A stretch of 25,886 nt of DNA from a virus. Shown here one piece after another: positions 95 through 24,962 of this stretch (its first letter is position 1; each line of letters opens with the position of its first letter). The notes beneath the pieces were generated by a model that was not told where the DNA came from, ran no database searches, and worked only from the letters and a program-made list of their open reading frames with translations. The stretch covers positions 1 to 25,886 of IMG/VR virus record IMGVR_UViG_3300047548_000719; one strand, written 5' to 3'. The translations under genes and the position numbers were made by a program.

Positions 95-223
95 TTATCT
101 TCCTTGTCCACGATAGTTCCTTTCTGATTTATCGTGTTTGTTATGTGATTTGTGTGCCTTTCCTTTTCTACGTTTACCGAAACTGATTTTCTGACTGTTG
201 GAACCACCTTTAGCTTTTGCCAT
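95..223 (-). CDS. Small highly basic phage protein (42 aa)
   Basis: An ATG at 223 opens a 42-residue frame beginning MAKAKGGSNSQKISFGKRRK and ending in a TAA at 95-97. It is rich in Lys, Arg, His and Gly and has no acidic cluster, membrane segment or cysteine, so nucleic-acid binding or a role as a small internal head protein is plausible. It lies 3 bases after the 307-codon gene and ends exactly where the next ATATTTAT box begins. Small proteins with a KGGS...FGKR...YRGQG pattern occur near portal genes of marine T4-like phages as I recall them. The function is unknown, but the compact packing between two coding genes supports it being real. Confidence 0.65.
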   Translation of the reverse strand: MAKAKGGSNSQKISFGKRRKGKAHKSHNKHDKSERNYRGQGR

Positions 224-2041: not shown

Positions 2042-3955
2042 TTAATCTAAGTCCTCTTTGATATTGCCCTCACTTAAAAGATCAGACTCTTCAAAAAGGT
2101 TAACTTTTCTGCCTTTTTTACCACCAAACATCTTCTCAAGAGATCCTTTTGTTTTCAAGAACTCTGCCATTGTAGATTCAAGCGCTAATGGACTACCTCC
2201 TTTGAAGTTAGTTTTGAGACTATTCTCACCAGTTTCAGCATCTTTCTTATAAGCAGAGGCTCCTAAAGGATCACGACCGAATGCAGAACCATCTGTAGAG
2301 ATAATAGAAGTCTGTGTTTTAGGACGGCCTGGTCCTACTTGCTTCTCATCATATCCTTGTGGTACATTCAATACGGAATCTTCTTTACCGCCATATAAAC
2401 TAGCTATTTGGTGAGGTGTTCCATAAGCTTGTCCAGATTCTGCAGGATCGTTTCCTTCTTCTTGAATCTGTGCATATCTAAAGTTACGTTTCTTGTCTTC
2501 AATGATTTGATCTTCTAGCTCAGCATATTGATCTTCTGAGAAGTGGAAGATCTTATCGTACATGAAGTCGCGAGGTAAAATTCCTGCTTCCATTGCATTC
2601 TTAGCAAGATCGATCTTCTCTTTGAATAGAGCAATTCTCTCTTGGTCGTAAATGATAGATGGGTTAGTTAATGACAATGTAAAGTTAGCTGCACTTTCGT
2701 TAGTATATCCATGAGCATACAAATGCACTAGAGCTATCTTAGTTAACTCACTGATAACTATACGCTGTAATCTTTCAACAGTTCTAGCAAAACGAATATC
2801 TTCTGCAGCAAGTGTTGCTTTACCAGTTAGATCTTTTTCATAACCCATAAAAGCTTTAGGTATCTTAAGAGCTGCAAACAACTTCTCACGGAAGTAAGCA
2901 ACGTCTTCTATGCCGTTATAATCAAGACCTTTTGCAGTATCAATCTTAGTAGAGGTATCATTTCCACGAACAGGAATAAAAAAGTCCTCTAACAAATTTT
3001 GCTGATTGTATTTTAAGTTATAGTTACCAGTGTTAGGATCAATAAGAGGTGTTTTCTTCATCTTATTAATCATCTTTTGCATGTAGTTATCTACTTCACC
3101 TGGAGGAATGGCACCTACGTTTACGTAGAATATACGGCGTTCTGGTGCACGAACAATACGGTGAATCAACATCGCATCTTCAATCAACACATACTGCTTA
3201 AATAACTTACGAGCAGGCTCAAGATATGATCTACCATAAGGTAAGTAGTTAACATCACCAGTCAATCTAAAGTGAGCCATCTCATAGTTATCAAACCAAA
3301 CACCAGTATCACGATTTTGTTGTGAACTATATCCAGTAGATGAAGCTAATGTTGCATTAGGATCATATTTGAAACGAACCTCTTGAGGATTTTCTGGGTT
3401 ATAACCTTCTTCACGAATAATATTATAGGCAGAGAATGGGATAACGTTGTACACACCGTAGTTTTCAGCGATCTCTAACTTTAAATAGAAGTCGCCATAC
3501 TTACACATGTTACGAATCCAACTCCATAAGTTAAATTCAATGTTAAGTACAGAATAGAATAAGTTGTAAAGTAGCTTTTGTATGTTCTCATCAGAAGATC
3601 TGATTTGTAGAACTTCTCCTTGTTCATTCTTAAGTGTACATTCGTCAGCTACAATATCTAGAGCAGAACAACAGATTGCATCTGTGTCCATAGCATCATA
3701 GTCAGCATAGATTTGTACACGAGCTGATTGATAGTTCTGTGATAAGTTTAGATTAACACCATACGCAGTAGATGTTGTATAAACCTTGTTGAATCTATCA
3801 ATTAATGAGTTTGTTTGAATGACACCTGAACGTTGTATAGTATCAGTGTCAATTACCTTTAACATATCTCCACCTTCATTACGAATAATTACGTCTGTAG
3901 AAAACAAACGTCTCAAGGTTGAGAATAAGTTATTTTGTTTTTGTTGTTCTGCCAT
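2042..3955 (-). CDS. 20: Portal (head-tail connector) protein, gp20-like
   Basis: The portal forms the dodecameric ring at the unique head vertex through which DNA is packaged and ejected. The protein has the T4 gp20 layout: an N-terminal region with YADYDAMDTDAICCSALDIV, a clip/stem region with many aromatic residues, a segment KDLTGKATLAAEDIRFARTV typical of T4-like portals, and a long polar tail. At 637 residues it is longer than T4 gp20 (about 524), mainly through a Gly/Lys-rich C-terminal extension. The extension ends with LLSEG, which resembles a prohead protease site. It starts 6 bases after the terminase stop, so terminase and portal are adjacent with no tail sheath or tube gene between them, unlike T4. 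Confidence 0.93.
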   Translation of the reverse strand: MAEQQKQNNLFSTLRRLFSTDVIIRNEGGDMLKVIDTDTIQRSGVIQTNSLIDRFNKVYTTSTAYGVNLNLSQNYQSARVQIYADYDAMDTDAICCSALDIVADECTLKNEQGEVLQIRSSDENIQKLLYNLFYSVLNIEFNLWSWIRNMCKYGDFYLKLEIAENYGVYNVIPFSAYNIIREEGYNPENPQEVRFKYDPNATLASSTGYSSQQNRDTGVWFDNYEMAHFRLTGDVNYLPYGRSYLEPARKLFKQYVLIEDAMLIHRIVRAPERRIFYVNVGAIPPGEVDNYMQKMINKMKKTPLIDPNTGNYNLKYNQQNLLEDFFIPVRGNDTSTKIDTAKGLDYNGIEDVAYFREKLFAALKIPKAFMGYEKDLTGKATLAAEDIRFARTVERLQRIVISELTKIALVHLYAHGYTNESAANFTLSLTNPSIIYDQERIALFKEKIDLAKNAMEAGILPRDFMYDKIFHFSEDQYAELEDQIIEDKKRNFRYAQIQEEGNDPAESGQAYGTPHQIASLYGGKEDSVLNVPQGYDEKQVGPGRPKTQTSIISTDGSAFGRDPLGASAYKKDAETGENSLKTNFKGGSPLALESTMAEFLKTKGSLEKMFGGKKGRKVNLFEESDLLSEGNIKEDLD

Positions 3956-3961
3956 TTTATA

Positions 3962-5554
3962 TTATATTAACCAAGTTAAATCTTGTGATTCTCCACCTTG
4001 AGGAGTAGATATATTCATACTCCAAGGGTTTTGATTATAAACATTGTTTGCATTGTAAGCAACACTAGTGTCTTGTGTTCTAGTGAAACTATTTAATGCT
4101 GCATAAGTTAAGTTCTCGGCCGTCTTACGATACCTTAAACTTGTCTCTCTCAAAAACATTGCAATACCAAATGACATCACTAAGTCGTCATTATATGATT
4201 GCATGGCTTGAGCCTTACCATTTTTCCAAATGAAAACTCTGAGCTCTTCAAGTAGTCTAATTGATCTAATTACAACCACTTTATTCTCTACAAAGTCTCT
4301 CATCTTTTCTACAACTAAAGGTCTGTTTTGAGTTGTCATTGAAAACCCAGGAACCAAACCTGATTGTGTGTTAAACTTATCCACATATTTAGTAAAATCC
4401 ATTGTTGAATCTTGCTTATAACTATAGTGGATATTAGTGTAACCTTTTTCTGTTATCGATTGAATAACGTCCCAGCCTATGTTTGCATTTTCAACTACTA
4501 ACAAAGCTGTGTTATATTCAGAGGCCACGCTTAACAATATGTTAGCATATTCTCTTGTATCGACTTGTGACTTATATTCAGCTACTTGAGTCAAAGCCTC
4601 TACATCAATAACATGAAATGCAGAGTAGTCATTTCCATCACCACGAGCAACGTCAGCTACTACCGCATAATATTTTGTAGGATCTGGGTATTCAAAGATC
4701 CATAATGCTTTATCAAGACCTCTTCTCTCAATTGGCTCTTGCAACATATTCTGTTCGTACCATACTAATATGTCTGGTTCGATAACAGTATTACCAGATG
4801 TTGCAAAGTCACAATCACACTCTTGAGCTGCATTTCTTTTACCTAACGTTCTATCTTGTTCGTCACGCCAAGCTTGATCACGTTCTGGGTGTACAGTCCA
4901 AGGTAGAGATATAGGCAAAAACCTGTTTTCTTGCTCTTGCGCTAGTGTATATGTTTTGTGAAACCAGTTACCAACACCATTAGGAGTAGATAACGCAATA
5001 CATCCACCACCAGTAGCAAGTGTTTGTTGAGCCGCTGTGAATATCGTTTCAATATTATCGATAAACGCAGCCTCATCTATTACTAGAAGAGATACAGCTT
5101 CAGAACGACCAGCATCACCAGCAGCTGATACCGCTTTAATTTGTGAACCGTTCGTCAACCTTAAACTCAACCTATTATCTTCAGACGCTCCTATTCTAAG
5201 CCATGTTGGTAAGTTCTGGTAAGCAAATCTCACCTTAGTCACCATGTTCTTAGCTGTTTCTTGCTTAGTTGCAATAACAAGAACGTTTTTATCTTTGTTA
5301 AACAACATCAACCATAATGAATAAGCAGATACTAGAGTAGATATACCTAGCTGTCTTGACTTATTGATTATAGAATAGTCATGCTTTTGAAACAATTTCA
5401 AAACCTTCTCCTGAAACGGATAGAGATTAAAGTATTGCCTTCCTCTTTGTGGGTGCTGGATCATGTAGTACTTCTTCATGAAGTATACTGGATCTGTTGC
5501 ACATTTGACAAACTCCTCTTTTATCCTTTCTTTTATATTCTGTTGTTCAGACAT
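3962..5554 (-). CDS. 17: Terminase large subunit, gp17-like (TerL)
   Basis: This is the ATP-driven motor and nuclease that packages DNA into the prohead. The ATPase domain shows a Walker A-type loop KSRQLGIST (residues 65-73), Walker B LLVIDEA (156-162) and coupling motif ALSTPNG (187-193). The RNase H-like nuclease domain shows DVARGDGNDYS (301-311), VVEN (353-356) and NDDLVMS (455-461), giving the expected acidic residues. T4 gp17 has SRQLGKTT; here Ile stands in place of Lys in that loop, a variant I recall from marine relatives rather than a sign of decay. The length of 530 is slightly below T4 gp17 (610). It is followed closely by the portal gene. Confidence 0.95.
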   Translation of the reverse strand: MSEQQNIKERIKEEFVKCATDPVYFMKKYYMIQHPQRGRQYFNLYPFQEKVLKLFQKHDYSIINKSRQLGISTLVSAYSLWLMLFNKDKNVLVIATKQETAKNMVTKVRFAYQNLPTWLRIGASEDNRLSLRLTNGSQIKAVSAAGDAGRSEAVSLLVIDEAAFIDNIETIFTAAQQTLATGGGCIALSTPNGVGNWFHKTYTLAQEQENRFLPISLPWTVHPERDQAWRDEQDRTLGKRNAAQECDCDFATSGNTVIEPDILVWYEQNMLQEPIERRGLDKALWIFEYPDPTKYYAVVADVARGDGNDYSAFHVIDVEALTQVAEYKSQVDTREYANILLSVASEYNTALLVVENANIGWDVIQSITEKGYTNIHYSYKQDSTMDFTKYVDKFNTQSGLVPGFSMTTQNRPLVVEKMRDFVENKVVVIRSIRLLEELRVFIWKNGKAQAMQSYNDDLVMSFGIAMFLRETSLRYRKTAENLTYAALNSFTRTQDTSVAYNANNVYNQNPWSMNISTPQGGESQDLTWLI

Positions 5555-5557
5555 ATA

Positions 5558-6256
5558 TTATTTTATGAGTATACCAGCTACCAAGCCTGCTACTCCAAAT
5601 ATAACTTTTTCAAATTTACCTATCTTCAACTTCCAATTTTTCTTTTTGATGTCTGCTTTAAGACCATCAATTTGGATTTTGTAGTTCTTAGCTTGTTCTA
5701 CTCTTTCTTTATCGATAGTAATATAGTTATCTTCTTTCTTTCTAAGATCGATGATAATTTTATCTTTATTCTTAACTAGAGTATCAAGACCTTGTATAGT
5801 GCTGTCTTGTGTTAATATAATCTTTTTATTTGTAAAAGATTGCATAATATCCACAGTGATTTGCTTAGATACTTCTAAAGGAAGATGTGTTGTATCTTCA
5901 CTCAAACTAGCAAATTGTACTGGGTATGCTGCCATAAAAAAGCTATCAACTTGAGTAGGTTTATAAGCTAAAGCTTTTTCAGCGTCTTTTAAATCACCTT
6001 TAAGAATACTAACCTTATCTTTTAGAACGTCTACACGATCAGTTAAATAAGTGTTTGTTTCTTCTAACAGTTGAATTCCAGATTCTAGACTGTCATTCTG
6101 TTGCTTAATAGAGTCAATACGATTTTCTAAAGAATCGATCTTATGTTCGTATGGTTTAGTATCGAAGTCAGAATTACACCCTTGGTATAAAAATAACCAA
6201 TAAATTAAACCAGCTAGTAATACTACTAGAGTTATCTTAGTCCATTGGTTCTTCAT
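5558..6256 (-). CDS. Membrane-anchored coiled-coil protein, spanin-like candidate (232 aa)
   Basis: An N-terminal hydrophobic segment (ITLVVLLAGLIYWLFLYQGC) is followed by a long heptad-rich coiled coil (EHKIDSLENRIDSIKQQNDS and onwards), a globular middle, a second charged helix and a short hydrophobic C-terminus (VIFGVAGLVAGILIK). An inner-membrane spanin or another envelope-spanning lysis factor is the simplest reading. The Cys after the first segment (YQGC) only weakly resembles a lipobox. I chose ATG 6256; an upstream in-frame TTG at 6280 would deepen the overlap with the preceding gene from 20 to 44 bases. It ends 3 bases before the terminase start. No lysin gene is visible nearby. Confidence 0.6.
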   Translation of the reverse strand: MKNQWTKITLVVLLAGLIYWLFLYQGCNSDFDTKPYEHKIDSLENRIDSIKQQNDSLESGIQLLEETNTYLTDRVDVLKDKVSILKGDLKDAEKALAYKPTQVDSFFMAAYPVQFASLSEDTTHLPLEVSKQITVDIMQSFTNKKIILTQDSTIQGLDTLVKNKDKIIIDLRKKEDNYITIDKERVEQAKNYKIQIDGLKADIKKKNWKLKIGKFEKVIFGVAGLVAGILIK

Positions 6257-6593
6257 CTGTGTCAGTTTCAGGTGTTTCAATTTGTTGAATCTGCTGCTTT
6301 AATAGCTTCAGACGATCAGGCATATTTCCTACCTCTTTTTTATAGGCAGCAATATCCTTTAGTTTCAAAGAGCCATCTGGTCCTTTTACAGCATGTTTAG
6401 CTAGGACAGCTTTTACTTTCTTTTGAAGGTCAGCATACTCTTGCTTCTTCTTGTAAAGATCACGAAAGCCTTTTTCGGTCTTTTTAAGATCTGCTTTAGA
6501 AGGTCCTTCATCATCTATTCCAATATCTTCGCGTATCTTGGAGATAATGGTAAGATTGTTCTCGGTTAAATACTTTTCTAAGTTAAATGACAT
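6237..6593 (-). CDS. Small helical phage protein with capsid-leader-like N-terminus (118 aa)
   Basis: From ATG 6593 the protein starts MSFNLEKYLTENNLTIISKI, then a Lys/Glu-rich helical body with coiled-coil character and an acidic C-terminus (TDTDEEPMD). The start was chosen over an open frame beginning at 6623 because an ATATTTAT box (6610-6617) would otherwise lie inside the gene, whereas from 6593 it lies 16 bases upstream, as at other genes. The first ten residues (xxLEKYLTE) loosely match the short leader seen on other genes of this block. The function is unknown. It overlaps the next gene by 20 bases. Confidence 0.6.
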   Translation of the reverse strand: MSFNLEKYLTENNLTIISKIREDIGIDDEGPSKADLKKTEKGFRDLYKKKQEYADLQKKVKAVLAKHAVKGPDGSLKLKDIAAYKKEVGNMPDRLKLLKQQIQQIETPETDTDEEPMD

Positions 6594-6609
6594 GGTCGTA
6601 CATTTACTT

Positions 6610-6617
6610 ATAAATAT
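6610..6617 (-). promoter_or_regulatory. ATATTTAT box upstream of the 118-aa gene
   Basis: The minus strand reads CAATATTTATAAGTAAATG just after the stop of the 83-codon gene (6620-6622) and 16 bases before the chosen ATG at 6593. It matches the ATATTTAT(A/T)AGTA pattern of the other boxes except for one inserted A. The promoter role is inferred. Confidence 0.5.
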
Positions 6618-6619
6618 TG

Positions 6620-6871
6620 TCAATCGCCTGAATCTTCTTCATTGACAGTCAATGCACGTCTAAATGGTCTAGAAAGCTCTAACCATTTGTCATATCCATA
6701 TTTTACACCGAAAATAAAATACTCGTCAGGTCTGGCCTCAGACTTAGGGTATTGTACTGCTGCTACTTTTGTGGAGTGGGGTTTGATTACCCCTTTGTCA
6801 TCTTCGTAGACATGGAAAATGATCCCTTCAACTGTTTTAATGGTTCTGTATATAGCGTCACGCTTTGCCAT
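6620..6871 (-). CDS. Hypothetical protein (83 aa)
   Basis: This is a compact, mixed-charge protein starting MAKRDAIYRTIKTVEGIIFH with several aromatic residues (YFIFGVKYGYDKW) and an acidic end (NEEDSGD). There is no cysteine, membrane segment or known motif. The ATG at 6871 follows a 49-base gap containing TATATTTAG, one base different from the ATATTTAT box, 15 bases upstream. It lies between a 532-codon gene and the 118-codon gene. I do not recognise the family; a small folded beta-rich phage protein is all that can be said. Confidence 0.55.
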   Translation of the reverse strand: MAKRDAIYRTIKTVEGIIFHVYEDDKGVIKPHSTKVAAVQYPKSEARPDEYFIFGVKYGYDKWLELSRPFRRALTVNEEDSGD

Positions 6872-6886
6872 AGTATATGTTTATGG

Positions 6887-6894
6887 CTAAATAT
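6887..6894 (-). promoter_or_regulatory. Variant box ATATTTAG upstream of the 83-aa gene
   Basis: The minus strand reads TTGTATATTTAGCCATAAAC in the 49-base gap 6872-6920. The core differs by one base from ATATTTAT and lacks the AGTA extension. It sits 15 bases before the ATG at 6871. It is listed because it is in one of the few real gaps of the block, but it is a weak match. Confidence 0.3.
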
Positions 6895-6920
6895 ACAAAA
6901 AAAAGTTGAAATAAAAAAAT

Positions 6921-8519
6921 TTATTTTGCCTTATAGTCACACATAATGTGAGTAGGATATAGACCACCTTGTTTGTTTCTGATATTAACTTTAAAGTAAT
7001 ACTTATCAGATTCAAATACAACGTCTATTCTCTTGCCTTTTCCATCAATTCCTCCATAGTATACTACAGGTTCTGATGTAATAGTAGATGCTTTTTTGTT
7101 ATACTTCTGGTCTATTTTAAAGAATTGATCTTCACCCTTTCCAGCCGAGGCATAATAATAACCGTATCCTATACCTGAACTAACTAGGTTTTGTAGTTTA
7201 CCAATATCAGCAGATATCTTTTTAGGCTTGAACTGTCCTGCTTTACCTTTTTCGTAGTAGTTAAATACAGCACAGAATGATTTATTATCTATTCCCAATG
7301 TTTTAAGTAGAGCGATGCCATTAGGGTTTTTGATCTCACCTTTCTTGATCTCATCTGCTGGGAGTGTTTTTGCAACTCCAGAGTTAAAGAATGTTAATGT
7401 TCCACCAAATTTAGCAGATATATAGTATTCTTTACCTTCTTTTATTACAGTAATATCAGTTAAAGTCTCTGCTACACTTTCACCAGAAAATGATACAACA
7501 GGGCCTGCGGAACTAAATGCCAGAGGTCTAGGTTTATTTGCACTACCGTCTAAACGGACAGTAAAGTTACCTTTTTTTAAACCTAGTTCATTAGCTATTT
7601 TACTAATAAGAACTGGATGATTATATGATTCAGCATTTTGTTTAGTAAGACCTTCTTTAGATAGCTTTTCAAGATCTCCTGCTAAACTACCTTCAAAACC
7701 AAGTCCTTTTGATTTAACACCACGACCACCTCTTGAACCTTCACCAAACTTAATGTTTAGTCCATTCCACTTAATATTTCCACCTGGTTGGAGGTCTTGT
7801 CCTGTTACTTTTTTAATGGCTGCAAGAGCTTTTTTATCTGTTTGAAACTTTCTTGTTATATTAACAAAATTAGGTTTTTGAGGATCTAATGATATAGGAT
7901 CTTCAATATCAGATATAGCTCTTAATGATTTATAAAGTGCTTTTATATTAGGATCTTTTATTTCTTTGTCTGACTTAGGAAAGTCTGTGTAAGCTTCTGC
8001 TCTTAATATACTCTCTAATATTCTAGATTCTGTTAACTCCTCTTCTCCTCCTGCTGCAGGTTCTGTTTCAGGTGTTGGTCCAGCTTCTGTATCTGGTCCT
8101 TCTTGATCACGAGTTGATTTTTCTGCACCTTCTGGACCTTGTGTCTTTAATGGGTTACCGAATCTAAGTAGTCTAGAGATAGCAACCATGCAACGTTCTT
8201 TCTCACCTATTGACATCAAATAGTATTTCTTACCTTGTACAGTTGCTTCATAAGCTTTGCCCATGAACTGTAAAAAGAAGAACTGTCCATTATGAAGAAC
8301 GATCTTAAATGTAGTTGGCTTAGGTGCTACTACATATATACCAGTGATGTACTCTTCAAATGACGGGGTCATCAAGTACTCTAAGGTCTTCTTGAGTCCT
8401 GCATACTTTCTCAATATGAATTGCATAGGATCATCCTCAAACGTAGATGTTTCAGGCTCCATCCTATCTAACTCTTTTAAGAGTATCGTCTTTAATATAT
8501 CGTGCTTAGACACAGGCAT
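6921..8519 (-). CDS. Large conserved phage protein, possible nuclease-fold domain (532 aa)
   Basis: An N-terminal domain (residues 1-125, MPVSKHDILKTILLKELDRM onwards) is joined by a Pro/Glu/Gly-rich linker (about 125-160) to a helical part and a larger C-terminal domain. The C-terminal domain contains LISKIANELGLKKGNFTVRL and a segment TDITVIKEGKEYYISAKFGG. The spacing D-x(10)-YISAK resembles the D...(D/E/S)-x-K core of PD-(D/E)XK nucleases, but no other catalytic residue can be placed confidently. The linker end (ELTESRILESILRAEA) holds several E-x sites like those cut by prohead proteases. I recall the C-terminal part from marine T4-like phages without a function. Packaging inside the head is possible but inferred. 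Confidence 0.6.
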   Translation of the reverse strand: MPVSKHDILKTILLKELDRMEPETSTFEDDPMQFILRKYAGLKKTLEYLMTPSFEEYITGIYVVAPKPTTFKIVLHNGQFFFLQFMGKAYEATVQGKKYYLMSIGEKERCMVAISRLLRFGNPLKTQGPEGAEKSTRDQEGPDTEAGPTPETEPAAGGEEELTESRILESILRAEAYTDFPKSDKEIKDPNIKALYKSLRAISDIEDPISLDPQKPNFVNITRKFQTDKKALAAIKKVTGQDLQPGGNIKWNGLNIKFGEGSRGGRGVKSKGLGFEGSLAGDLEKLSKEGLTKQNAESYNHPVLISKIANELGLKKGNFTVRLDGSANKPRPLAFSSAGPVVSFSGESVAETLTDITVIKEGKEYYISAKFGGTLTFFNSGVAKTLPADEIKKGEIKNPNGIALLKTLGIDNKSFCAVFNYYEKGKAGQFKPKKISADIGKLQNLVSSGIGYGYYYASAGKGEDQFFKIDQKYNKKASTITSEPVVYYGGIDGKGKRIDVVFESDKYYFKVNIRNKQGGLYPTHIMCDYKAK

Positions 8520-8521
8520 TC

Positions 8522-9238
8522 TTATTTTGCTTTTTTAGCAGCGCTCTTCCACATTGCAGCGGCAGCTACTTTTTGTCCTCTTTCTTTTGAACCGTATTTT
8601 TCAGCAGCAGCTTTAGCTATCTTCTCAAAGCCTTTGCCTTTCTTTCCAATATCTTTTCCAGATTTAGCTTTCTTTGAAATAGCCGACTTTTGCTTCTTTG
8701 TAAGACCAGCTGATGGTTTTTTCTTTGCTTCATCTACACCTGTATCATATTCAGTATCGTAATCATGAATTTCTGTGTCACCATAATCTTCATCATCATC
8801 TTCACCTAGAATGTTTTCCATAAGACTAGCTAAACTCATATTGTGCTCATCATCTACTGGCTCTTCTTCAGTACCATCTGGAAGTTCGTCGATATCTTCT
8901 TCACCATGGCTATATTCATGATAGTTCTTTGAAGCTTGATTAATATAGTTCTCTGCATTAGTGATATGATCTTGAATCCAAGCCGGGATATCTTTCTCAT
9001 CTTGACCTAACAAGTTCATTAACTGACTTGCTGAACTTATGATTGACTTAAGGCTATTTTGTGCCATTGATACTTCATGGTCTCCTTCTTTCATACCTTT
9101 TTTTGCACGAAGAGCAGCAAAGTCTGCGCCTGTGATTTTATCTTTAGGCTCAGCAGCTCCAGCAATTTTCTTTTGCTTTGGACTCAACTCTTCTGCTTCA
9201 GAAAGTAGTCTCTTCTTAAGTTCAGTGATGTTTATCAT
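8522..9238 (-). CDS. Putative internal head protein with acidic centre and basic C-terminus (238 aa)
   Basis: The first residues MINITELKKRLLSEA match the leader pattern of this block and end in LSE/A, like a prohead protease site. Then come a helical domain (about 60-110, with IPAWIQDHITNAENYINQAS), a strongly acidic stretch (about 112-165) and a Lys/Ala-rich C-terminal module (about 175-238) with SKKAKSGKDIGKKGKGFEKI and AAAAMWKSA. I recall the last module from small phage and bacterial proteins of unknown function. The charge pattern suits DNA contact at the C-terminus. It lies 2 bases upstream of the 532-codon gene and overlaps the preceding gene by a few bases. Its fate as a packaged protein is inference. 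Confidence 0.6.
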   Translation of the reverse strand: MINITELKKRLLSEAEELSPKQKKIAGAAEPKDKITGADFAALRAKKGMKEGDHEVSMAQNSLKSIISSASQLMNLLGQDEKDIPAWIQDHITNAENYINQASKNYHEYSHGEEDIDELPDGTEEEPVDDEHNMSLASLMENILGEDDDEDYGDTEIHDYDTEYDTGVDEAKKKPSAGLTKKQKSAISKKAKSGKDIGKKGKGFEKIAKAAAEKYGSKERGQKVAAAAMWKSAAKKAK

Positions 9239-9510
9239 TTCTTTTTCTTTTTGTCTAATTTTCTTTTTACTATTTCTCTAGTCCTATCCATTTTTCTGGC
9301 ATAGGCTGGATCTTCTTTACGATTAAAGTTAGCTTGTTGATTCAATGAGCCTGTAATTCTACTCATATTACCTTTTCTAGTTCTGATCAACCAATTTGCC
9401 AACTTTTCTGCCGACAACTTTCTGAATTTACCTTTTGCATCAGGTGCATTAGAGTGGTGAAACTTCAACCTCTCTTCAGCTAATTCAGTTAATATATCGA
9501 TTAGTCTCAT
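9235..9510 (-). CDS. Small basic phage protein with leader-like N-terminus (91 aa)
   Basis: The ATG at 9510 overlaps the upstream stop as ATGA, and the resulting N-terminus MRLIDILTELAEERLKFHHS matches the leader on neighbouring genes, which decides this start over an open frame reaching 9543. The body has ANWLIRTRKGNMSRITGSLN and then a Lys/Arg-rich tail ending KKKKK. I recall this WLIxTRKGNMxRITGSLNQQ pattern as a common uncharacterised protein of marine T4-like phages. The strong positive charge suggests DNA or RNA contact. No catalytic motif is visible. Confidence 0.65.
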   Translation of the reverse strand: MRLIDILTELAEERLKFHHSNAPDAKGKFRKLSAEKLANWLIRTRKGNMSRITGSLNQQANFNRKEDPAYARKMDRTREIVKRKLDKKKKK

Positions 9511-9794
9511 TTTTTCTTCTTTGACTTTCTTGCTCTCTTCCATAACTTCTTATCTACTTTTCTTGCTCCACCTTTACCAGTCACAAATGAGTTTACTCGG
9601 CCCATACCCCACTGATGTTGTGAAACACCAGGACGGTGCCCAGTTTTCCAAGCAGCTAATCCTTTAGCGTAAACACTCTTGAGTATTGACTTAGATATGC
9701 CAGTAGCTTTTGCCTTATTAGACAGTGCCTTTTCTACTTCAGCACTATACTCTAATATAAGTATTTGTTTTAATATCTGTAAGTCTAAACTCAT
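9507..9794 (-). CDS. Small basic conserved phage protein, DUF5824-like (95 aa)
   Basis: After an N-terminal helix (MSLDLQILKQILILEYSAEV) comes a conserved core SVYAKGLAAWKTGHRPGVSQ followed by QWGMGRVNSF, and a C-terminal KKLWKRARKSKKKK. The AAWKTGHRPG...QWGxxRVNSF pattern is one I associate with a small uncharacterised phage family (DUF5824-like, from memory). It is very basic. The N-terminal helix resembles the leader of its neighbours and ends ILE. It overlaps the gene before it and the gene after it by four bases each (ATGA). The function is unknown; DNA binding is plausible. Confidence 0.65.
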   Translation of the reverse strand: MSLDLQILKQILILEYSAEVEKALSNKAKATGISKSILKSVYAKGLAAWKTGHRPGVSQHQWGMGRVNSFVTGKGGARKVDKKLWKRARKSKKKK

Positions 9795-10387
9795 AGTTTA
9801 CCTTGGCCCATTAATCTATATGTCTTAGCTCTAAGCTTCTTAACTGAATCACGAATAGCCAGATATTCTGGGTTATCTTTTGCTCTGTCTAGAAACTTTA
9901 CTAGATCATCTAACCTTTTATATAGCTCTTTTGGCTTTACTTCATAAGAAACATCCCAACTAACCTTTCCTGTTTCAGGGTCTAGACTAGTCAATTTTGT
10001 TTCTGGTTCAGGAATTGAAGCCGGATCAATGTCCTCATTCTTTTTACCAAACCTCTTCTCATAGGCAGAAGTAGCAGCACTCTTCTTAGTCTTATACTTC
10101 TTGGTCTTACCTTTGTCAGCATAATCAGCTTCCCACTTTCCATAAGCAGAAGGATCATCTGACTTCAACTTCTTTACTCTATCGATCTCACGCTTCATTG
10201 CTGCAGCGTCCTTGGTCAAATATGCAGGGTTGATTTTACCTTTCTTTTTTTTCTTGGCTTCACTTACTCTAACACAGTTAGGAACCATTTTATCACCTTT
10301 CTTCTTCATTCCTTGCTGTTCATAACCATCCCAACAAGCTTCTTGAAGATTAACGGCTTCTTTTAATATGTCTATGAGTTTGATCAA
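9791..10387 (-). CDS. Conserved phage protein with capsid-leader-like N-terminus, TTG start (198 aa)
   Basis: The start is a TTG overlapping the upstream stop as TTGA. It is supported because it gives MIKLIDILKEA, nearly identical to the N-terminus of the P-loop kinase gene at 16,223. Two further potential cut sites follow: NLQE/A before a module CWDGYEQQGMKKKGDKMVPN, and VSE/A before a Lys-rich stretch. The middle (about 55-115: YLTKDAAAMKREIDRVKKLK and a KSAATSAYEKRFGKK end) and a helical C-terminus complete it. I recall the CWDGYxQxGMKKKG..MVPNCV module from many marine phages with no known role. The apparent leader and internal E/A sites suggest a packaged, processed protein. Confidence 0.65.
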   Translation of the reverse strand: MIKLIDILKEAVNLQEACWDGYEQQGMKKKGDKMVPNCVRVSEAKKKKKGKINPAYLTKDAAAMKREIDRVKKLKSDDPSAYGKWEADYADKGKTKKYKTKKSAATSAYEKRFGKKNEDIDPASIPEPETKLTSLDPETGKVSWDVSYEVKPKELYKRLDDLVKFLDRAKDNPEYLAIRDSVKKLRAKTYRLMGQGKL

Positions 10388-10644
10388 AGTTTGGTTATTT
10401 TAACTGTTAGGCTACCGGTTCCTTTAATAGCACGATGCCACACATATCTAGGAATAAATATCTGCCCTTTAATTAAAGTGGGTAGTTGATTGTCTAATTG
10501 AATCTGCCAATCAGTTGGATCAGTTGCTTCAACAATACGGTCTTCTTGATCACGATGCCACATTAATTCTGTAGGATCTATGTCTTGATCAAACACTCTT
10601 GTAACAGTGTTAGCTTCACTTTTTATTTCCTGGTAAGGTCTCAT
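10384..10644 (-). CDS. Small cupin-like phage protein (86 aa)
   Basis: The sequence MWHRDQEDRIVEATDPTDWQ leads to a segment LDNQLPTLIKGQIFIPRYVW followed by HRAIKGTGSLTVKI. This pattern (WHRD..DR, W.x.QLDNxLP, G..FIP...HR..KG...L.V.I) is one I recall from a small phage family with a cupin-like beta-barrel look, although no complete metal site can be demonstrated here. It overlaps the preceding gene by 29 bases and the following gene by four. Its role in the phage is unknown. Confidence 0.6.
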   Translation of the reverse strand: MRPYQEIKSEANTVTRVFDQDIDPTELMWHRDQEDRIVEATDPTDWQIQLDNQLPTLIKGQIFIPRYVWHRAIKGTGSLTVKITKL

Positions 10645-11248
10645 TGATATCGTAATAATATGAATCTGTGTCTTCTGATACCCATCTATCTGAAACAGAC
10701 TCTACATTTAATAGCTCTGTGTCTACTTTTATCTTTTTTGGTTCAACAGGAAACTCTTTTGTTACCCAGTTAGAATCTTTCCAGAATAACCTATTGTTAG
10801 GCTGACATAATAAATAACCATCATCTGCTACCAAAACATGACCACATTTATAATCAGAAGGCTCATTAGAATAAGTGTTGTTTTGCCAATCAATTGTGAA
10901 CATGTAAGTAGCCCAAACAAATGTCTTATCTCTCAATATTACTTTGCACTTTTTATCTTTCAAGAAGTCGTATTTGATTATAGCAGCATCTGAACCAAAA
11001 CAATCCCAAAGCTGTTTGAAATGAAATGGTAGGTCTTTTACAGGAGGTTTGATATATATCTCAGACAAAGGAACCCTCGACCTTAACATGCCATAATCGG
11101 TCATGATGTGAAAGGTCAATATCTTAGAGTCAACAGACTGTACTCCAAATGCATAGCAGTTGTGGAAGATCTTGTCGTCTTTCTGGTCTTTTGTAAAGTA
11201 AGACTGCTTTACTAGACACTTAAACCCTTCTATATTGTAGTTTAGCAT
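10616..11248 (-). CDS. Conserved phage protein of unknown function (210 aa)
   Basis: The protein is rich in aromatic residues, with the segments FHFKQLWDCFGSDAAIIKYD, MFTIDWQNN and KCGHVLVADDGYLLCQPNNR. The LWDCFS..., FTIDWxx and HxLxxDxGxxxLQPNNR motifs recur in an uncharacterised family that I recall from diverse tailed phages. It looks like a folded beta-rich enzyme or binding protein, but no catalytic residues are evident. It begins 5 bases after the end of the upstream gene, so it is in the same transcript. It carries no leader-like N-terminus. Confidence 0.6.
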   Translation of the reverse strand: MLNYNIEGFKCLVKQSYFTKDQKDDKIFHNCYAFGVQSVDSKILTFHIMTDYGMLRSRVPLSEIYIKPPVKDLPFHFKQLWDCFGSDAAIIKYDFLKDKKCKVILRDKTFVWATYMFTIDWQNNTYSNEPSDYKCGHVLVADDGYLLCQPNNRLFWKDSNWVTKEFPVEPKKIKVDTELLNVESVSDRWVSEDTDSYYYDINETLPGNKK

Positions 11249-11252
11249 ACTA

Positions 11253-12056
11253 TTACCAGAATCCTGAGAAGTTAGATTTTAAACCTAACAACTTGGCGTA
11301 TCTTGGTAAGCGGCAAGACCAGTATTTAGGAGTTGTCTTGTCTTTAGCTTGTGAACATTTGTGTCTAGCTGCAAAACTTCTCCTAGCTTCTGGATTGTTA
11401 ATCTTAGCAGAAAGGCCAGATGTATCACCGAAAGATACTTTCTTGATGCCTCCACCAGGTTTACGTACATAAACGTAAAACTTCTTAGAGCCACCACGCT
11501 TAGGTTTATTTAATTCAGGCTGCTTCTTCTTTGCTTTCTTTTTAACTTCTAGTAAGAAGTCAATAGTCATTGGAAAGTCTAGAGGTACTTTTACACCATT
11601 GTAGATACCAGTAGTACCTAGGTCAGTGTTTTGAAAATACCACTCATCTTGTTCAGATAATTGAAGCTTGCCTGTTTCGTATAATGATCTTGCCTCTTCA
11701 AATAAGGCTAGAAAATTTGTAGATTGTGGACGGTAAATAGACTCGTTAAGATCAATCTTATTGTCTAAATGGTAAGCTAGTCCTTCTGAGATAAGAAGTC
11801 TGTTAGCTGTTTCGTGCAGTTGTAGTTTATTTTCTGTTCTGTAGCAGTCGCATCCATCATCATAACCTTCCGGACCTTTATATGCTGGGCTGTTAGGCTG
11901 TTTCTCTTCTAAACCTGCTTTAGTCAGTTTATCGTAGTATTTAGGATCTTCTTTAAGGTGATCTAAAGCTATCTTTAAGGCGACACGTTTGTCGTCAGTA
12001 TGCTCCATCTCAACTTCAATACCCTTTTTAATTTGGTCGATTGAAGGTTGTTTCAT
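11253..12056 (-). CDS. Multi-module conserved phage protein (267 aa)
   Basis: Three modules are visible. Residues 1-50 (IEVEMEHTDDKRVALKIALD, HLKEDPKYYDKL) match a short module that I recall as DUF5661-like. Residues 112-165 (ALFEEARSLYETGKLQLSEQ, YNGVKVPLDFP) match a module found on many marine phage proteins. Residues 190-267 (KKFYVYVRKPGGGIKKVSFG, RHKCSQAKDKTTPKYWSCRL) form a basic Cys/His-containing module. The last junction is FLLE/VKKKAKKK, resembling a prohead protease site, and LISE/G, LNE/S and FEE/A occur earlier. The start overlaps the upstream stop as TAATG. The function is unknown; the modular layout suggests a precursor that is cleaved. Confidence 0.6.
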   Translation of the reverse strand: MKQPSIDQIKKGIEVEMEHTDDKRVALKIALDHLKEDPKYYDKLTKAGLEEKQPNSPAYKGPEGYDDGCDCYRTENKLQLHETANRLLISEGLAYHLDNKIDLNESIYRPQSTNFLALFEEARSLYETGKLQLSEQDEWYFQNTDLGTTGIYNGVKVPLDFPMTIDFLLEVKKKAKKKQPELNKPKRGGSKKFYVYVRKPGGGIKKVSFGDTSGLSAKINNPEARRSFAARHKCSQAKDKTTPKYWSCRLPRYAKLLGLKSNFSGFW

Positions 12057-12427
12057 TACTGTAGGAATTTAAGTCTATATCTAGCTTCTTCAATTAACTC
12101 AACTATCTCATCAACTTGATTCTGAATATAAGAGTCTTGTGGAATTTGCTTTCTGATTGTCTCAACAAACTTGCAAAGACCGTCAAAGTACATTCTAGCG
12201 TTATTATCTTCACGAATAGTATCGGCCATCTTATAGCCAGTTATGATACCATAGCGACCTTGTATACCTTCTGCTAATTTATCTAATACAGGAACAATAC
12301 CTTCATAATAGGCTTGTAAAGCTCTATGCATAGCATCTGAACCTACACCTTGTGATTGCAAATGGTACACATGTGCTTGTGTTCTAGACTGCATTAATGT
12401 TCCTATGAATAGTCCTACTGCTTCCAT
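12056..12427 (-). CDS. Helical phage protein, DUF5856-like (123 aa)
   Basis: An all-helical small protein starts MEAVGLFIGTLMQSRTQAHV and contains HLQSQGVGSDAMHRALQAYY and GRYGIITGYKM. The pattern SRTQAHxxHLQ...HxAL..YYxGI...D.L.E..QG.YGI is one I associate with a phage family (DUF5856-like, from memory) that resembles a Dps/ferritin-type four-helix bundle. The His and Glu residues could suit metal binding but this is not demonstrable here. It lies 3 bases downstream of the DUF3008-like gene, and its stop overlaps the next start. Confidence 0.6.
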   Translation of the reverse strand: MEAVGLFIGTLMQSRTQAHVYHLQSQGVGSDAMHRALQAYYEGIVPVLDKLAEGIQGRYGIITGYKMADTIREDNNARMYFDGLCKFVETIRKQIPQDSYIQNQVDEIVELIEEARYRLKFLQ

Positions 12428-12430
12428 TAT

Positions 12431-13348
12431 TTATTTTTTATATAGATATACTGGTTCTCCTAATCCGTGTTTGTCTTTACCAACCATTTTATAAACTGTA
12501 GAAATATCAAAGCTAGATGGGTCAAAATCTCCTACTTTAGTACCTTCTCCTGATTGTTTAAAATCTACTCTTGCAAAAATCTTTTTGTCTCCATTAAGAT
12601 CCCAAAAGCCATGGCTAACTTTGTCATACAACTTTTTTGCTTTAGGAAATTTTGAAAGAAGCGTCTCTTCATCATGAATGTCTTTTACAAAACTAATATC
12701 CATTTTTTTATCGTCAGCTTCTTTCAACTCTTTTTTATCTTCTGCCTTTTCTATTTGCTTTTTACTCTTCTCTATTCTCTCTAACTTAGTCATTAAATCA
12801 TCGATCTGTGTAGCGATCTTAGCGATGTGCTCTTTATGCTTACTAGCACTTTTAGGATCATCTTTAGCTAGAGTCAAATGCTCTTTACGCTTCTTTTCAA
12901 GCTGATCAATTGCCTTTTTGATTTTACCAGATGTAGTATCTTTTTTTTCTTCTAGAGCAATTGCCTCATCACAATACTTTTGGTATGCTTCAGCTGCAAT
13001 TTGTTGTGCATCTTCAGCAGTAGCATGAACAGAATGAACATCATTCATGTTTATATTAAGAGGCTGGATTCCTTCAAGTGGATTGATCTCACATACCATT
13101 TTCTCAGCAGTCATACCATCCATTGGCTTACGAACCAAGAACATAGTTGGGATAGCCATCTCTTCTTTCTTTACTTTCTTAGGAAGCCCTTTATGTTTAG
13201 TAGAAGCAAAGTCTTTTACATCTGACTTTTTCATTGACTTAGCCATTTGTTGAGCCTTTTTAGAAGCTTTTCCTGGTTTTAATTGACCAGTTTGTAGGGC
13301 GTGAACAATACCCATCAATCTTTGCTGCTGTTTAGATGTAGCTGGCAT
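12431..13348 (-). CDS. DUF3008-like N-terminus fused to a coiled-coil protein (305 aa)
   Basis: Residues 1-55 (MPATSKQQQRLMGIVHALQT, AQQMAKSMKKSDVKDFAST, KHKGLP) look like the DUF3008 type of small basic protein that is usually free-standing. Here it continues into a mid domain (about 65-135), a strongly charged coiled coil (about 135-215) and a C-terminal domain (about 220-305, GFWDLNGDKKIFARVDFKQS). LKEADDKK near 213 resembles an (L)-x-E/A cut site. The ATG at 13348 is 17 bases downstream of an ATATTTAT box that is embedded in the last codons of the upstream gene, so it probably starts a late transcript. The role is unknown; a head-internal or scaffold-like part is possible. Confidence 0.6.
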   Translation of the reverse strand: MPATSKQQQRLMGIVHALQTGQLKPGKASKKAQQMAKSMKKSDVKDFASTKHKGLPKKVKKEEMAIPTMFLVRKPMDGMTAEKMVCEINPLEGIQPLNINMNDVHSVHATAEDAQQIAAEAYQKYCDEAIALEEKKDTTSGKIKKAIDQLEKKRKEHLTLAKDDPKSASKHKEHIAKIATQIDDLMTKLERIEKSKKQIEKAEDKKELKEADDKKMDISFVKDIHDEETLLSKFPKAKKLYDKVSHGFWDLNGDKKIFARVDFKQSGEGTKVGDFDPSSFDISTVYKMVGKDKHGLGEPVYLYKK

Positions 13349-13364
13349 ATACTTTTAAGATTTA

Positions 13365-13943
13365 CTAATAAATATCTTGCTTCTTCCATTCGTCTATCTT
13401 CTTTTTGAGCTCTTCATAGATAGCAGATTTGTCTCCACCAGACCAAGATTCAATGTCTCCTTGCTCAGAAACGAATGTATCTTTATCTTCAAGCCATGAA
13501 TCTAGAGCTCTTTCGAAGTCTTCTAGGCTAGCATTCTTATTAGAATTGAGAATGTTTTTCTCATAGTCTTCGTACTTACCTTCTGCTTTAAGCTTAGTTT
13601 CCATATCAATCACACAATCAAGACACATCTGGTGAATAGCGAACATCTTCTTGTTAAGCTCGTTTACCTTCATAGGTTTCTTACAACTTGGGCAAGAGAT
13701 AGGAAGTATCGCTAAATGTTTGAGTTTGTCTAATTTAGTAATAGATTGTTTGATGCCATTTTTTATGGTCCACTTCTTGCCATCTTCTTCCCAGACATCA
13801 CCTTCTTTATGGTCTTGTATTTTACTTTCCCAGCCTGCTTGGACTTGGGTTCTATCACCAGATTTACCAGTGATTAGGTTTCGCATTCTTTGAACATCAC
13901 GTTTCGAAAACTCTTTCTTGAGTGTTGACTCATTTGGTATCAT
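13365..13943 (-). CDS. Zinc-finger-like conserved phage protein (192 aa)
   Basis: An N-terminal basic part (FSKRDVQRMRNLITGKSGDR) is followed by a small beta segment (EGDVWEEDGKKWTIKNGIKQ) and a probable zinc site, CPSC at about 94-97 paired with CLDC at about 117-120 (ISCPSCKKPMKVNELNKK, HQMCLDCV). The C-terminus is acidic and helical. I recall this combination (SKxDVQRMRNLI.GK, GDxWEENGKxWTIKNGIKQ) from marine T4-like phages with no assigned role. The last codons (GAT ATT TAT TAG) double as the ATATTTAT box for the next gene. Confidence 0.65.
   Translation of the reverse strand: MIPNESTLKKEFSKRDVQRMRNLITGKSGDRTQVQAGWESKIQDHKEGDVWEEDGKKWTIKNGIKQSITKLDKLKHLAILPISCPSCKKPMKVNELNKKMFAIHQMCLDCVIDMETKLKAEGKYEDYEKNILNSNKNASLEDFERALDSWLEDKDTFVSEQGDIESWSGGDKSAIYEELKKKIDEWKKQDIY
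13368..13375 (-). promoter_or_regulatory. ATATTTAT box embedded in the end of the zinc-finger gene
   Basis: The minus strand reads AAGATATTTATTAGTAAATC, so the box encodes the final Asp-Ile-Tyr and abuts the TAG stop of the upstream gene. It lies 17 bases before the ATG at 13348 and matches the consensus including AGTA. Conservation of the box inside coding sequence would be a strong test of function. Confidence 0.5.
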
Positions 13944-13948
13944 ACAAC

Positions 13949-14854
13949 TTATTTTAACCTGAATTTATCTAATATATTACTTGTCGCTTCAAATGATTTA
14001 TACATAATAGCAATACCACCAACTTCTTTCCAAGGTGCTAGGTTTGGATAGTAGTCATCAATTAACATTGAACTTCTGATCTCTTCTGGTGACTTGTCCT
14101 TGATCGCTTCATACTTCTTTCCAGTATTAGCAAACATAATATCTTTTGGCTGAGGAGAAAGATTTTCTCTGATCCACTCTAACTTGCCTTCTCTAGCGTA
14201 TATAAATTTGCCTGGGCTTGTCAATATGATTGGGTCATACTTGGATATCTTGGCCCATAATTCACGGCCACCTTTTAACCAAGGCATTTTTGACCAATAA
14301 ATTGGGCCTACTTTATCTACGGCTTCTTCCATAGCCTTTTGGCCTTTCTCTTTAGCGTACTCTCTAGGTGGAACACCGTAGTAGTGTTCAAACCTACTGT
14401 CGAAGTCACATAGCACACCGTCCATATCACAATAGATCTGAATGCTTCTAGACTTTTCTGCTTCATATATCTGTTTAAGTGAAGGAATAACTGTCTCATA
14501 AATGAGATCGTTAATGCGTCCGTAATCACGCATCATAATGCCTGCTAATGAGTTAGCTTCATTTTCGATATCAGAGCCAGTGTTTCCAGAACCTATTGTC
14601 AAACGACCTTCTTCATTTTGTTTATGGTGTATTAACTCGTGACCTAGTGTTCTAAGTATATCAGCTAAATTCCTATTACCTATATAAACTTCTAATGTCT
14701 TTGTACCAGGATTGTATTGGCCAAAACTACGACGGTCTACTGCCCAACTTCTTTTGTTGGCAAATTCGATTTTAGGCAACTCTTTTATTTGAAGCCTATT
14801 TTTAGCGAACTCAACAAAGTCTTCTATGATTGCTATTCTTTGTGGGTCTGTCAT
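13949..14854 (-). CDS. Zinc metallopeptidase-like domain fused to HAD (deoxy)nucleotidase-like domain (301 aa)
   Basis: Residues 1-130 hold a zincin signature HELIH (72-76) with a possible third ligand in IENEANSLAG (about 96-105), as in small metallopeptidase-like domains. Residues 138-301 are a HAD-fold phosphatase: motif I DMDGVLCDF (143-151), ILTSPG as motif II, and MLIDDYYPNLAPW as motif IV. This resembles 5'(3')-deoxyribonucleotidases. The join IYE/AEKSR at about 129-135 fits the (L/I)-x-E/A prohead protease site, so the halves could separate. The start overlaps the upstream nucleotidyltransferase stop as ATGA. The HAD substrate (nucleotide or polynucleotide end) is not known, and peptidase activity is inferred from the motif only. 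Confidence 0.8.
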   Translation of the reverse strand: MTDPQRIAIIEDFVEFAKNRLQIKELPKIEFANKRSWAVDRRSFGQYNPGTKTLEVYIGNRNLADILRTLGHELIHHKQNEEGRLTIGSGNTGSDIENEANSLAGIMMRDYGRINDLIYETVIPSLKQIYEAEKSRSIQIYCDMDGVLCDFDSRFEHYYGVPPREYAKEKGQKAMEEAVDKVGPIYWSKMPWLKGGRELWAKISKYDPIILTSPGKFIYAREGKLEWIRENLSPQPKDIMFANTGKKYEAIKDKSPEEIRSSMLIDDYYPNLAPWKEVGGIAIMYKSFEATSNILDKFRLK

Positions 14855-15441
14855 TTCATTATCTTTATTAGTCTACCAAACACATCTTTGGTAACTCCTT
14901 TATTATATGCAGCATCTGGGATAAACTTCTCGAACTCTTTTACATTTCCTTGCTTAACTGCTGCACGCATTTGTGTTGCTGATATTCTACCAAACTGATC
15001 AGGTATTACTTCTTTTCTTACTCGATCAGGGAATCTTTTTTGTATAGCATCAAAGTAACCTAGACCTTCTACCTCTTCGGCTCCACCTGCAACGTAGACA
15101 GGATCAACTTCACGATTAGCGTCTAGAAAAGAAAAAATATCTTTGATAGGTGTTGACTCTTTTGATATCTCTACCTTGATCTTAGGGTTAGGCTCTGCTT
15201 TCAAGTACTCTGTCCATATATAAAGAGAGTCTTCTGGTGTTATACCAAACTTAGTAACATTAGATATAATAACATAGACCTTATTAATATAAGGCTTAGA
15301 TGCTAGATATTTTGCAGCTTCAAAGTGACCTTTATGTGGTGGTTTGAATTTGCCAGGATAAAGGCAAGGTCCAACATCTGGTGATGCCTCTCTTAAAATA
15401 TCTTCTGCGATTTGTCTACCTATGTGGTCTATATTGATCAT
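14851..15441 (-). CDS. HxGH nucleotidyltransferase (NMN adenylyltransferase/cytidylyltransferase-like) with leader
   Basis: The N-terminus MINIDHIGRQIAEDILREA looks like a longer version of the block's leader and ends LREA. The enzyme follows: GKFKPPHKGHFEAAKYL with the HxGH site (KPPHKGH, ending at 39) and ISATQMR (153-159), the second nucleotide-binding motif. These mark the nucleotidyltransferase superfamily that includes NadM-type NMN adenylyltransferases and cytidylyltransferases; the exact substrate cannot be read from the sequence. It is overlapped by four bases on both sides (ATGA) by the P-loop kinase and the peptidase-phosphatase, which implies a co-translated enzyme set. A link to NAD metabolism or to end-processing is inference. 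Confidence 0.8.
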   Translation of the reverse strand: MINIDHIGRQIAEDILREASPDVGPCLYPGKFKPPHKGHFEAAKYLASKPYINKVYVIISNVTKFGITPEDSLYIWTEYLKAEPNPKIKVEISKESTPIKDIFSFLDANREVDPVYVAGGAEEVEGLGYFDAIQKRFPDRVRKEVIPDQFGRISATQMRAAVKQGNVKEFEKFIPDAAYNKGVTKDVFGRLIKIMK

Positions 15442-16223
15442 TTGGAAATAAACGATTTTGCTTTAGTAACAGCTTGATTCATGTCTTGTACTTTCAACCT
15501 TTCAACATCTTTTTCAATCTTGTCAAATTGGCCAGAAAGTATGTCTATCTGCTTGTCTACCAACGCTTTAGACTTAGCGATCTCTTCAGGGCTTTTCTGC
15601 TTAGTAGGATCTTTTCTGAATGTTGATTTGAATTCTCCAGAAGATAATAAGCTCTCAAAGAACTCTTTCAACTTATTCTGCTTGAAAGCCTTTTCGAACT
15701 CACCAACCATTTTCTTCTCTTCATCAGACATAGTTGTCTGTACTAAAAAGAATTTATCGCCAAACAGCTTCTTATATGTTTCGATATTCTTGTAGATATT
15801 ATTCCAGCTACTTAGAACACCTACAGTTGGCACCTTTCTTTCTCTTTTGAAGTTGCGAAGGAAGCTAACAATAGGGTTAGAATAAACCATGACCATCATG
15901 ACCTCGTAGCCATTGTCTTGGATAGATTTGATCCTATCTACATTAGAAGCTGTAGTGTCATACAAGAAGTTCTTGCCACTTTTAATAGTATCAGGAAGGT
16001 CAATCTTGTCGATTCTGTTAGAAGCCTTGGCCAGATTATTATACATGTCAGACTCTGGATCTTCTACATATTTATCTGCATTTAACTCAATCCAGCCATT
16101 TTTTACTAGGTCTGGTCTGATTTGCTTAACAAAAGTAGATTTACCGACTCCGGCCCCGCCTGCCATTACAATAGCCTTCTTCTGGCCTTTCACCTCATTT
16201 AATAAGTCTAGTAGCTTAATCAT
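15438..16223 (-). CDS. P-loop kinase, zeta-toxin/polynucleotide-kinase-like, with leader (261 aa)
   Basis: The N-terminal MIKLLDLLNEV is almost the same as the leader of the gene at 10,387. Directly after it is a P-loop domain: Walker A GGAGVGKST (22-30), ELNADKYVEDPESDMYNNLA, and FLYDTTASN as the second-strand motif, all typical of zeta-toxin and PNK-like kinases that I recall from marine T4-like phages. The C-terminal 80 residues are Lys-rich helices. It could phosphorylate a nucleotide sugar, nucleotide or nucleic-acid end; the sequence does not decide. The ATG at 16223 lies 6 bases after an ATATTTAT box, and it is the first gene of a kinase, nucleotidyltransferase, peptidase-phosphatase cassette joined by ATGA overlaps. 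Confidence 0.8.
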   Translation of the reverse strand: MIKLLDLLNEVKGQKKAIVMAGGAGVGKSTFVKQIRPDLVKNGWIELNADKYVEDPESDMYNNLAKASNRIDKIDLPDTIKSGKNFLYDTTASNVDRIKSIQDNGYEVMMVMVYSNPIVSFLRNFKRERKVPTVGVLSSWNNIYKNIETYKKLFGDKFFLVQTTMSDEEKKMVGEFEKAFKQNKLKEFFESLLSSGEFKSTFRKDPTKQKSPEEIAKSKALVDKQIDILSGQFDKIEKDVERLKVQDMNQAVTKAKSFISK

Positions 16224-24518: not shown

Positions 24519-24962
24519 ATGGACAAAGCAAATGCACTAAGAAAGCTTATTCGTGAAGAACTAAAAGCAGTTCTGAAAGAGGAACTTCCTAAGATTTTAA
24601 AGGAGGTTCAAGCCCCTGTAGTAAAATCTGCACAGAAAAGTCTACAAGAAGAGGTTAAGTCTAAGATACCTGGTACTTTAAATACAAAAGCAGCTAGACC
24701 TCAGATTAACTTTGCCCCAAATAACCCAATGGCAGCCTTCTTAAACGATACTGCAAAGTCTATGCTTAATGAGGACTTTTCTATGTCCTCAGATGATGTT
24801 CATCCAGCCATAGCTTTCCAACCTCGTGATGTTAAAGTAGGTTCAGTAGAAGGAATGTTAGGATCTGCTAGACCTAGCTCAAATCTAAATGCTGTTCAGA
24901 TTAATGAGGTTCCAGACTTCTCTGGGATAATGAATAAATTAAAAGAAACTGGTCAAATCTAA
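24519..24962 (+). CDS. Hypothetical baseplate-region protein (147 aa)
   Basis: An N-terminal amphipathic, Lys/Glu-rich helix (KLIREELKAVLKEELPKILK) is followed by a Pro/Asn/Ser-rich, probably extended region and a short C-terminal helix (SGIMNKLKETGQI). There is no cysteine or known motif. It follows an ATATTTAT box by 5 bases and its stop overlaps the gp25-like start (TAATG), so it is co-expressed with the wedge. A small wedge or assembly protein is plausible. I do not recognise a family. Confidence 0.6.
   Translation: MDKANALRKLIREELKAVLKEELPKILKEVQAPVVKSAQKSLQEEVKSKIPGTLNTKAARPQINFAPNNPMAAFLNDTAKSMLNEDFSMSSDDVHPAIAFQPRDVKVGSVEGMLGSARPSSNLNAVQINEVPDFSGIMNKLKETGQI

Follow-up and report, generated by a model that had tools for sequence, protein, structure and literature searches.

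Why should a series of proteins that share nothing else begin with closely similar short peptides? The question is raised by a 25,886-nucleotide (25.9-kb) virus record, here called the window, which covers part of the genome of a T4-like phage. The minus strand of the window encodes a primase, an exonuclease, a run of small genes, the terminase large subunit (gp17-like; 3962-5554; phrog_2, E=8e-50), the portal protein (gp20-like; 2042-3955; phrog_213, E=7e-66) and two further conserved genes (227-2001). The isolates with the closest terminases are Flavobacterium phage immuto (56%) and Microcystis phage Mel-JY01 (52%), and long metagenomic relatives are available in G001 (162 kb), G002 (180 kb) and G003 (166 kb). 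An earlier sequence-only reading of the window had proposed that several of its proteins carry a shared leader of the T4 capsid-targeting type and are packaged in the capsid.

Across the window and its relatives, we distinguish four classes of leaders: class A, MIKLxDILxE; class B, F(D/N)LKKFLVENKLT; class C, MKKSxLRxIIKE; and class D, MKxQ(L/I)NExKRMQxLAGI(I/L)xES. Further examples of leader peptides are MRLLELLREAKE, MENFDLKKFLVENKLTTNSKILKE and MKKQILSEQFRRMQKLAGIITES. Class C is set apart as the least secure because similar helices start a baseplate-region gene, and its specificity for the head may therefore be doubted; the gene concerned lies on the plus strand of the window (24519-24962), and its class C-like helix, MDKANALRKLIREELKAVLKEEL, is kept in relatives.

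All N-termini quoted in the sequence-only reading were found at their positions on the minus strand, and the bodies behind them are unrelated, as it had claimed. The gene at 15438-16223 encodes a zeta/PNK-like P-loop kinase, with PDB matches to epsilon/zeta and polynucleotide kinases, behind the class A leader MIKLLDLLNE (16194-16223), which is followed by V. M1, L4, D6 and E10 of this leader are invariant across 10 orthologues with identities down to 34%, and in the AF2 model residues 1-10 form a separate helix with a mean pLDDT of 52, while the core begins at residue 15 and is mostly at ~90. The cytidylyltransferase-like protein (14851-15441; PHROG cytidyltransferase, E=4e-7) has the long leader MINIDHIGRQIAEDILRE, followed by A (15388-15441), and the Glu of this leader is kept in eight orthologues, including MNPEKIGSQIAKSILLEE in G003. 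A protein without assigned function (9791-10387) begins with the class A leader MIKLIDILKE, followed by A (10358-10387); its start codon is TTG, overlapping the preceding stop codon (TTGA), while the other leader genes start with ATG. The small basic protein (9235-9510) carries MRLIDILTELAE(E) (9472-9510; orthologues MKLQELLQQLVEE), in which comparison of orthologues places the conserved Glu at residue 12, and the lysine-rich protein (8522-9238) carries MINITELKKRLLSE, followed by A (9197-9238; orthologues MTNISFFKALLMKE and MENSLSYYRNILLQE). The two N-termini that had been described as weaker forms have to be separated: that of the DUF5824 protein (9507-9794; PF19141, E=2e-17) is a variant class A leader, MSLDLQILKQILILE (9750-9794; orthologues MIKLLDILKEMFIFE, MNLLSILKEILSE and, in G010, MIKLLDILKEMFIFEYD), while that of the protein at 6237-6593, MSFNLEKYLTENNLTIISKIRE, belongs to class B (FNLEKYLTENNLT), which recurs on unrelated proteins in immuto and G003. 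This leader is retained by 16 of the 17 members of its body family. The list had also overlooked one gene, which encodes a 532-residue protein (6921-8519; phrog_8438, E=2e-60) with the leader MPVSKHDILKTILLKE, followed by L (8472-8519; orthologues MIKLKDILKKILKE and MNKDLDILKAILLE). Searches of Pfam and PHROG gave no function for most of the cargos in the window. The N-terminus MRPYQEIKSEA at 10,644 looks like the T4 leader, but the Glu/Ala is not retained in relatives and we rejected it as a leader.

Taken by itself, the window gives these shared N-termini modest significance. The strict pattern hxxhhxE (h, hydrophobic) is present in 3 of the 23 genes, compared to a mean of 0.89 after shuffling (P=0.05); N-terminal pair scores reach P=0.01 for the best and P=0.003 for the third-best pair; and a looser pattern, chosen post hoc, is present in eight of the 23 genes (P=0.0004). 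The set is far larger among relatives, and there the evidence for sharing becomes decisive. In a scan of viruses with a DNA pattern, the class A leader opens at least 149 proteins, which fall into at least 63 body clusters without detectable similarity, and when N-termini are aligned across relatives the leaders recur and conservation ends at the Glu. In class A, Glu10 carries 3.8 bits of information and the weakly biased residue 11 carries 0.42 bits; the search pattern included Glu10 and left residue 11 free. Searches by tblastn with leaders of 24-26 residues gave matches in immuto only. The leader-bearing phages are aquatic and T4-like, and their hosts seem to be mostly Bacteroidetes. A Prochlorococcus single-cell contig (L504) encodes two MIKFxDILKE proteins side by side, and the leader may thus also be present in phages of other hosts.

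N-termini of this kind could lack any role in targeting and stem from translation-initiation sequence, from composition or from the duplication of a cassette of promoter and leader. The genomes are AT-rich, and of 63 unrelated genes with class A leaders at loci L143-L261, 60 use ATA for Ile7 compared to 44% ATA genome-wide, as might be expected on such an account. However, the codons for Leu, Asp and Glu of the leaders vary while the residues are constant, and the upstream DNA is not conserved, which argues that selection acts mainly on the protein. Moreover, the class D motif lies 10-20 residues into the protein or at the C-terminus, and the class A pattern, with at least 151 matches in viruses, picked out 40 stretches when 257 Gb of cellular genomes were scanned. 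Several of these stretches are in Flavobacteriales bins or on contigs that carry two or three genes with the pattern. None of the virus matches listed lies deep within a reading frame: for 134 of them the open stretch upstream is 20 codons or shorter, and it never exceeds 60 codons. Thus, simple base composition was rejected as the cause, and we consider an explanation by initiation signals or cassettes very improbable.

The proteins could also be members of a single ancient gene family, the bodies of which have diverged past recognition, and some bodies do share domains across fusions. By contrast, the class A bodies have different folds and include zeta/PNK-like kinases, Nudix proteins (4e-14), RimK ATP-grasp proteins (1e-32), RNase T-type exonucleases (7e-11), an Acb1/2H-phosphoesterase-like protein (1e-4 to 4e-4, under the Pfam cut-offs) and an ART-like family with DarT and KptA as best PDB matches (E=2e-3, model pLDDT 63), together with weak matches to HAD-like and protein-kinase-like proteins. 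These assignments contradict descent from one divergent family, which is hardly credible. Two leader proteins of immuto (L001; 12261-12575 and 17631-18632) bear the GenBank names TiaS agmatinyltransferase and cob(I)alamin adenosyltransferase; the latter region had no match in a Pfam scan, and both names therefore look unreliable.

Judged from its distribution, the leader behaves like a separable module, since leaders swap or persist while the bodies change. For instance, the body IKKGIEVEMEHT is leaderless in the window and G001, has a class C leader in immuto and has a class A-like start in G002. Similarly, the leader of the protein at 10,387 is joined in G001, G007 and G008 to a different first domain with the same second domain, while in L033 and L046 it is attached directly to the second domain. 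Three of the 64 component families with leaders mix leader classes.

What, then, would such a module be for? The location of the genes points to the head. In T4-like phages, the head module gp17-gp20-gp21-gp22-gp23 forms one block, of which gp17 and gp20 lie inside the window and the rest is seen in relatives. Strict-pattern leaders are enriched in this head block relative to the remaining genes in G001 (6/30 vs 5/165, Fisher P=2e-3), G002 (6/31 vs 1/190, P=3e-5), G003 (7/33 vs 3/162, P=2e-4) and immuto (12/29 vs 6/183, P=5e-8), and some leader proteins sit outside the block. In a control on T4, the same pattern found gp24, Alt, gp2 and five other proteins and missed IPI-III, and it is thus neither complete nor specific in T4. 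The order of the two genes after the portal gene is the same in G001, G002, G003, immuto and Mel-JY01, and beyond them in these genomes follow an S77 protease, a gene in the scaffold (gp22) position and then gp23. In the window, a 42-residue basic protein that ends in YRGQGR (95-223, minus strand) sits between portal and protease; similar tiny proteins that share this ending are present in G001, G002, G003 and immuto.

The idea of cleaved leaders calls for a prohead protease, and a gp21-type protease (Peptidase_S77) was found in 16 of 22 related records, a few genes past the portal gene in the nearest isolates (immuto, E=9e-35) and always alongside gp23. All related records with gp23 also have this protease. 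Among 16 further leader-bearing records, nine, including all six above 130 kb, have both protease and gp23, and seven, which are shorter fragments, have neither. A PF03420 search on the window was uninformative because the window edge cuts the head block; given the protease in every related record with gp23 and the conserved gene order, the protease gene of this phage is almost certainly located just beyond the left edge.

The form of the leaders matches such a protease. They end in hxE, as do the decapeptide removed from T4 gp24 and the predicted maturation site of gp23 in these phages, QAKQLVVE followed by S or A, which was placed by analogy with T4. Moreover, gp23 starts with MANLVQSLLTES, which closely resembles both class A and T4 gp24 (MAKINELLRES). 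In the literature, we found no virion proteomics or cleavage data for immuto or its kin. A leader that docks proteins in the head and stays uncut, with the Glu as part of the docking helix, is an alternative: the Glu might be conserved for binding, and the scaffold tail described below ends in LAGI with no cut site after it. Against uncut docking stand the shared hxE form, the end of conservation at the Glu and the presence of the S77 protease, and we regard it as unlikely.

Class D links the leaders to the scaffold position. Its motif, RMQxLAGI, is also the C-terminal tail motif of the protein in the scaffold position. As a leader, it is present on 64 unrelated bodies, with conservation from -10 to +11 and background thereafter (information content above 1 bit up to residue +11 from the motif start); Glu is found at -4 in 53 of 63 and at +9 in 48 of 64, and neither position was part of the search pattern. 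A count over 497,000 residues placed the LAGI motif near the N-terminus in 19 cases, at the extreme C-terminus in another 19 and nowhere else, and in wider scans 106 of 110 genuine LAGI C-terminal tails belong to the gene immediately before gp23, i.e. the scaffold position. In other words, the end of the scaffold appears to be reused as a cargo leader, which is what a docking signal should resemble. Some proteins outside the scaffold position apparently also have a C-terminal LAGI tag (G017 3214-3777, L391, L394 and L458), which suggests that the tag is workable at either end of a protein.

These observations also bear on the idea that the leader addresses a target other than the head, i.e. 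membrane, tail, chaperone or degradation machinery. A short amphipathic helix could bind a membrane, the class C-like start of the baseplate-region gene would suit a tail address, and the protein behind the leader MIKLKDILTE in L216 (1725-2972) combines Peptidase_M23 and phage tail lysozyme domains. This protein is an exception or a virion-borne lysin and not an obvious internal head protein. The clustering with head genes, the recurrence of the class D peptide as the C-terminal end of the scaffold-position protein, whose gene directly precedes gp23, and the class A-like start of gp23 all argue against a target outside the head, which appears quite improbable.

Targeting to the head by a short leader has precedents. 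Mullaney and Black reportedly described in 1996 the T4 capsid targeting sequence (CTS), i.e. the IPII/IPIII leader MKTYQEFIAEA. The leaders described here are likewise N-terminal peptides of about ten residues on unrelated small proteins, end in hxE and occur with an S77 protease in the genome. To this extent, the parallel drawn in the sequence-only reading holds. However, there are several classes rather than one, more than 60 clusters rather than a handful of bodies, and no sequence kinship to MKTYQEFIAEA in any of the four classes; nor is the T4 CTS described as matching the scaffold tail, as class D does. Pfam and PHROG searches with the window proteins gave no match to the T4 internal-protein (IPI-III) family. 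Descent from the T4 CTS family is not supported, and the leaders would work like the T4 CTS by analogy. Class A instead resembles T4 gp24, from which the prohead protease gp21 removes the first ten residues, MAKINELLRE (PMC9958956), in nearly the same layout (M-x-x-h-x-x-L-L-x-E); the gp24 decapeptide is on a shell protein, whereas the leaders here are on diverse cargo. The propeptides of 10-20 residues of gp24 and internal proteins are both termed CTS (PMC5694885), and in the T-even phages the internal proteins are diverse defence proteins of which only the CTS is conserved (PMC3012670). In phiKZ and SPN3US, propeptides of ejection proteins are cut after x-Glu and have been inferred to target the head (PMC5694885); these often exceed 100 residues and are not common short tags, unlike the short and shared leaders here. 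The first 30 residues of P1 DarB direct a reporter to the capsid (PMC9024508), but their sequence is unrelated to the present leaders and P1 has no known scaffold. The ART-like cargo can be compared to the internal ADP-ribosyltransferase Alt of T4 (leader MELITELFDE) in enzyme type and leader, not by demonstrated homology. Alt is injected into the host.

Based on these comparisons, we propose that the peptides are prohead-targeting leaders of internal head proteins that are cut after the Glu by the gp21-type protease, and we give this proposal a probability of about 80%. It is favored by the sharing among unrelated bodies, the Glu boundary, the clustering in the head block, the co-occurrence of S77 protease and gp23, the scaffold-tail match, the gp23 start, the gp24 precedent, leader swapping and the leader of the kinase, which is modelled as a detached helix of low confidence; the L216 protein, the leader proteins outside the head block, the weak bias at residue 11 and the modest statistics of the window count against it. 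In this model, the N-terminal peptide would dock each protein into the scaffolding core during prohead assembly, the protease would cleave after the terminal Glu of the hydrophobic-x-Glu end, and the freed bodies would be packaged alongside the DNA, probably entering the host together with it. Many of the bodies would then act there as enzymes on the host or its defences. Ejection into the host and a role in counter-defence are plausible, and we are less sure of them than of targeting with cleavage.

The few internal proteins of T4 act in counter-defence and takeover and can be identified by their leader. Should this hold for the present phages as well, short leader motifs would provide a sequence handle on the injected effectors of uncultured phages, and dozens of families, mostly without an assigned function, would gain a predicted place, the virion, and a predicted time, entry. 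The mimicry of the scaffold tail also suggests a binding partner for the tags described here. More broadly, it is on balance probable that a few head-docking peptides, exchangeable between proteins, constitute a general loading code, in which the RMQ[QK]LAGI anchor of the scaffold is reused on at least 64 unrelated cargos and dozens of enzyme families (ART-like proteins, kinases, Nudix, ATP-grasp, Acb1-like phosphoesterase and exonuclease) are delivered at infection. If so, these phages would bring a large set of effectors into the host together with their DNA.
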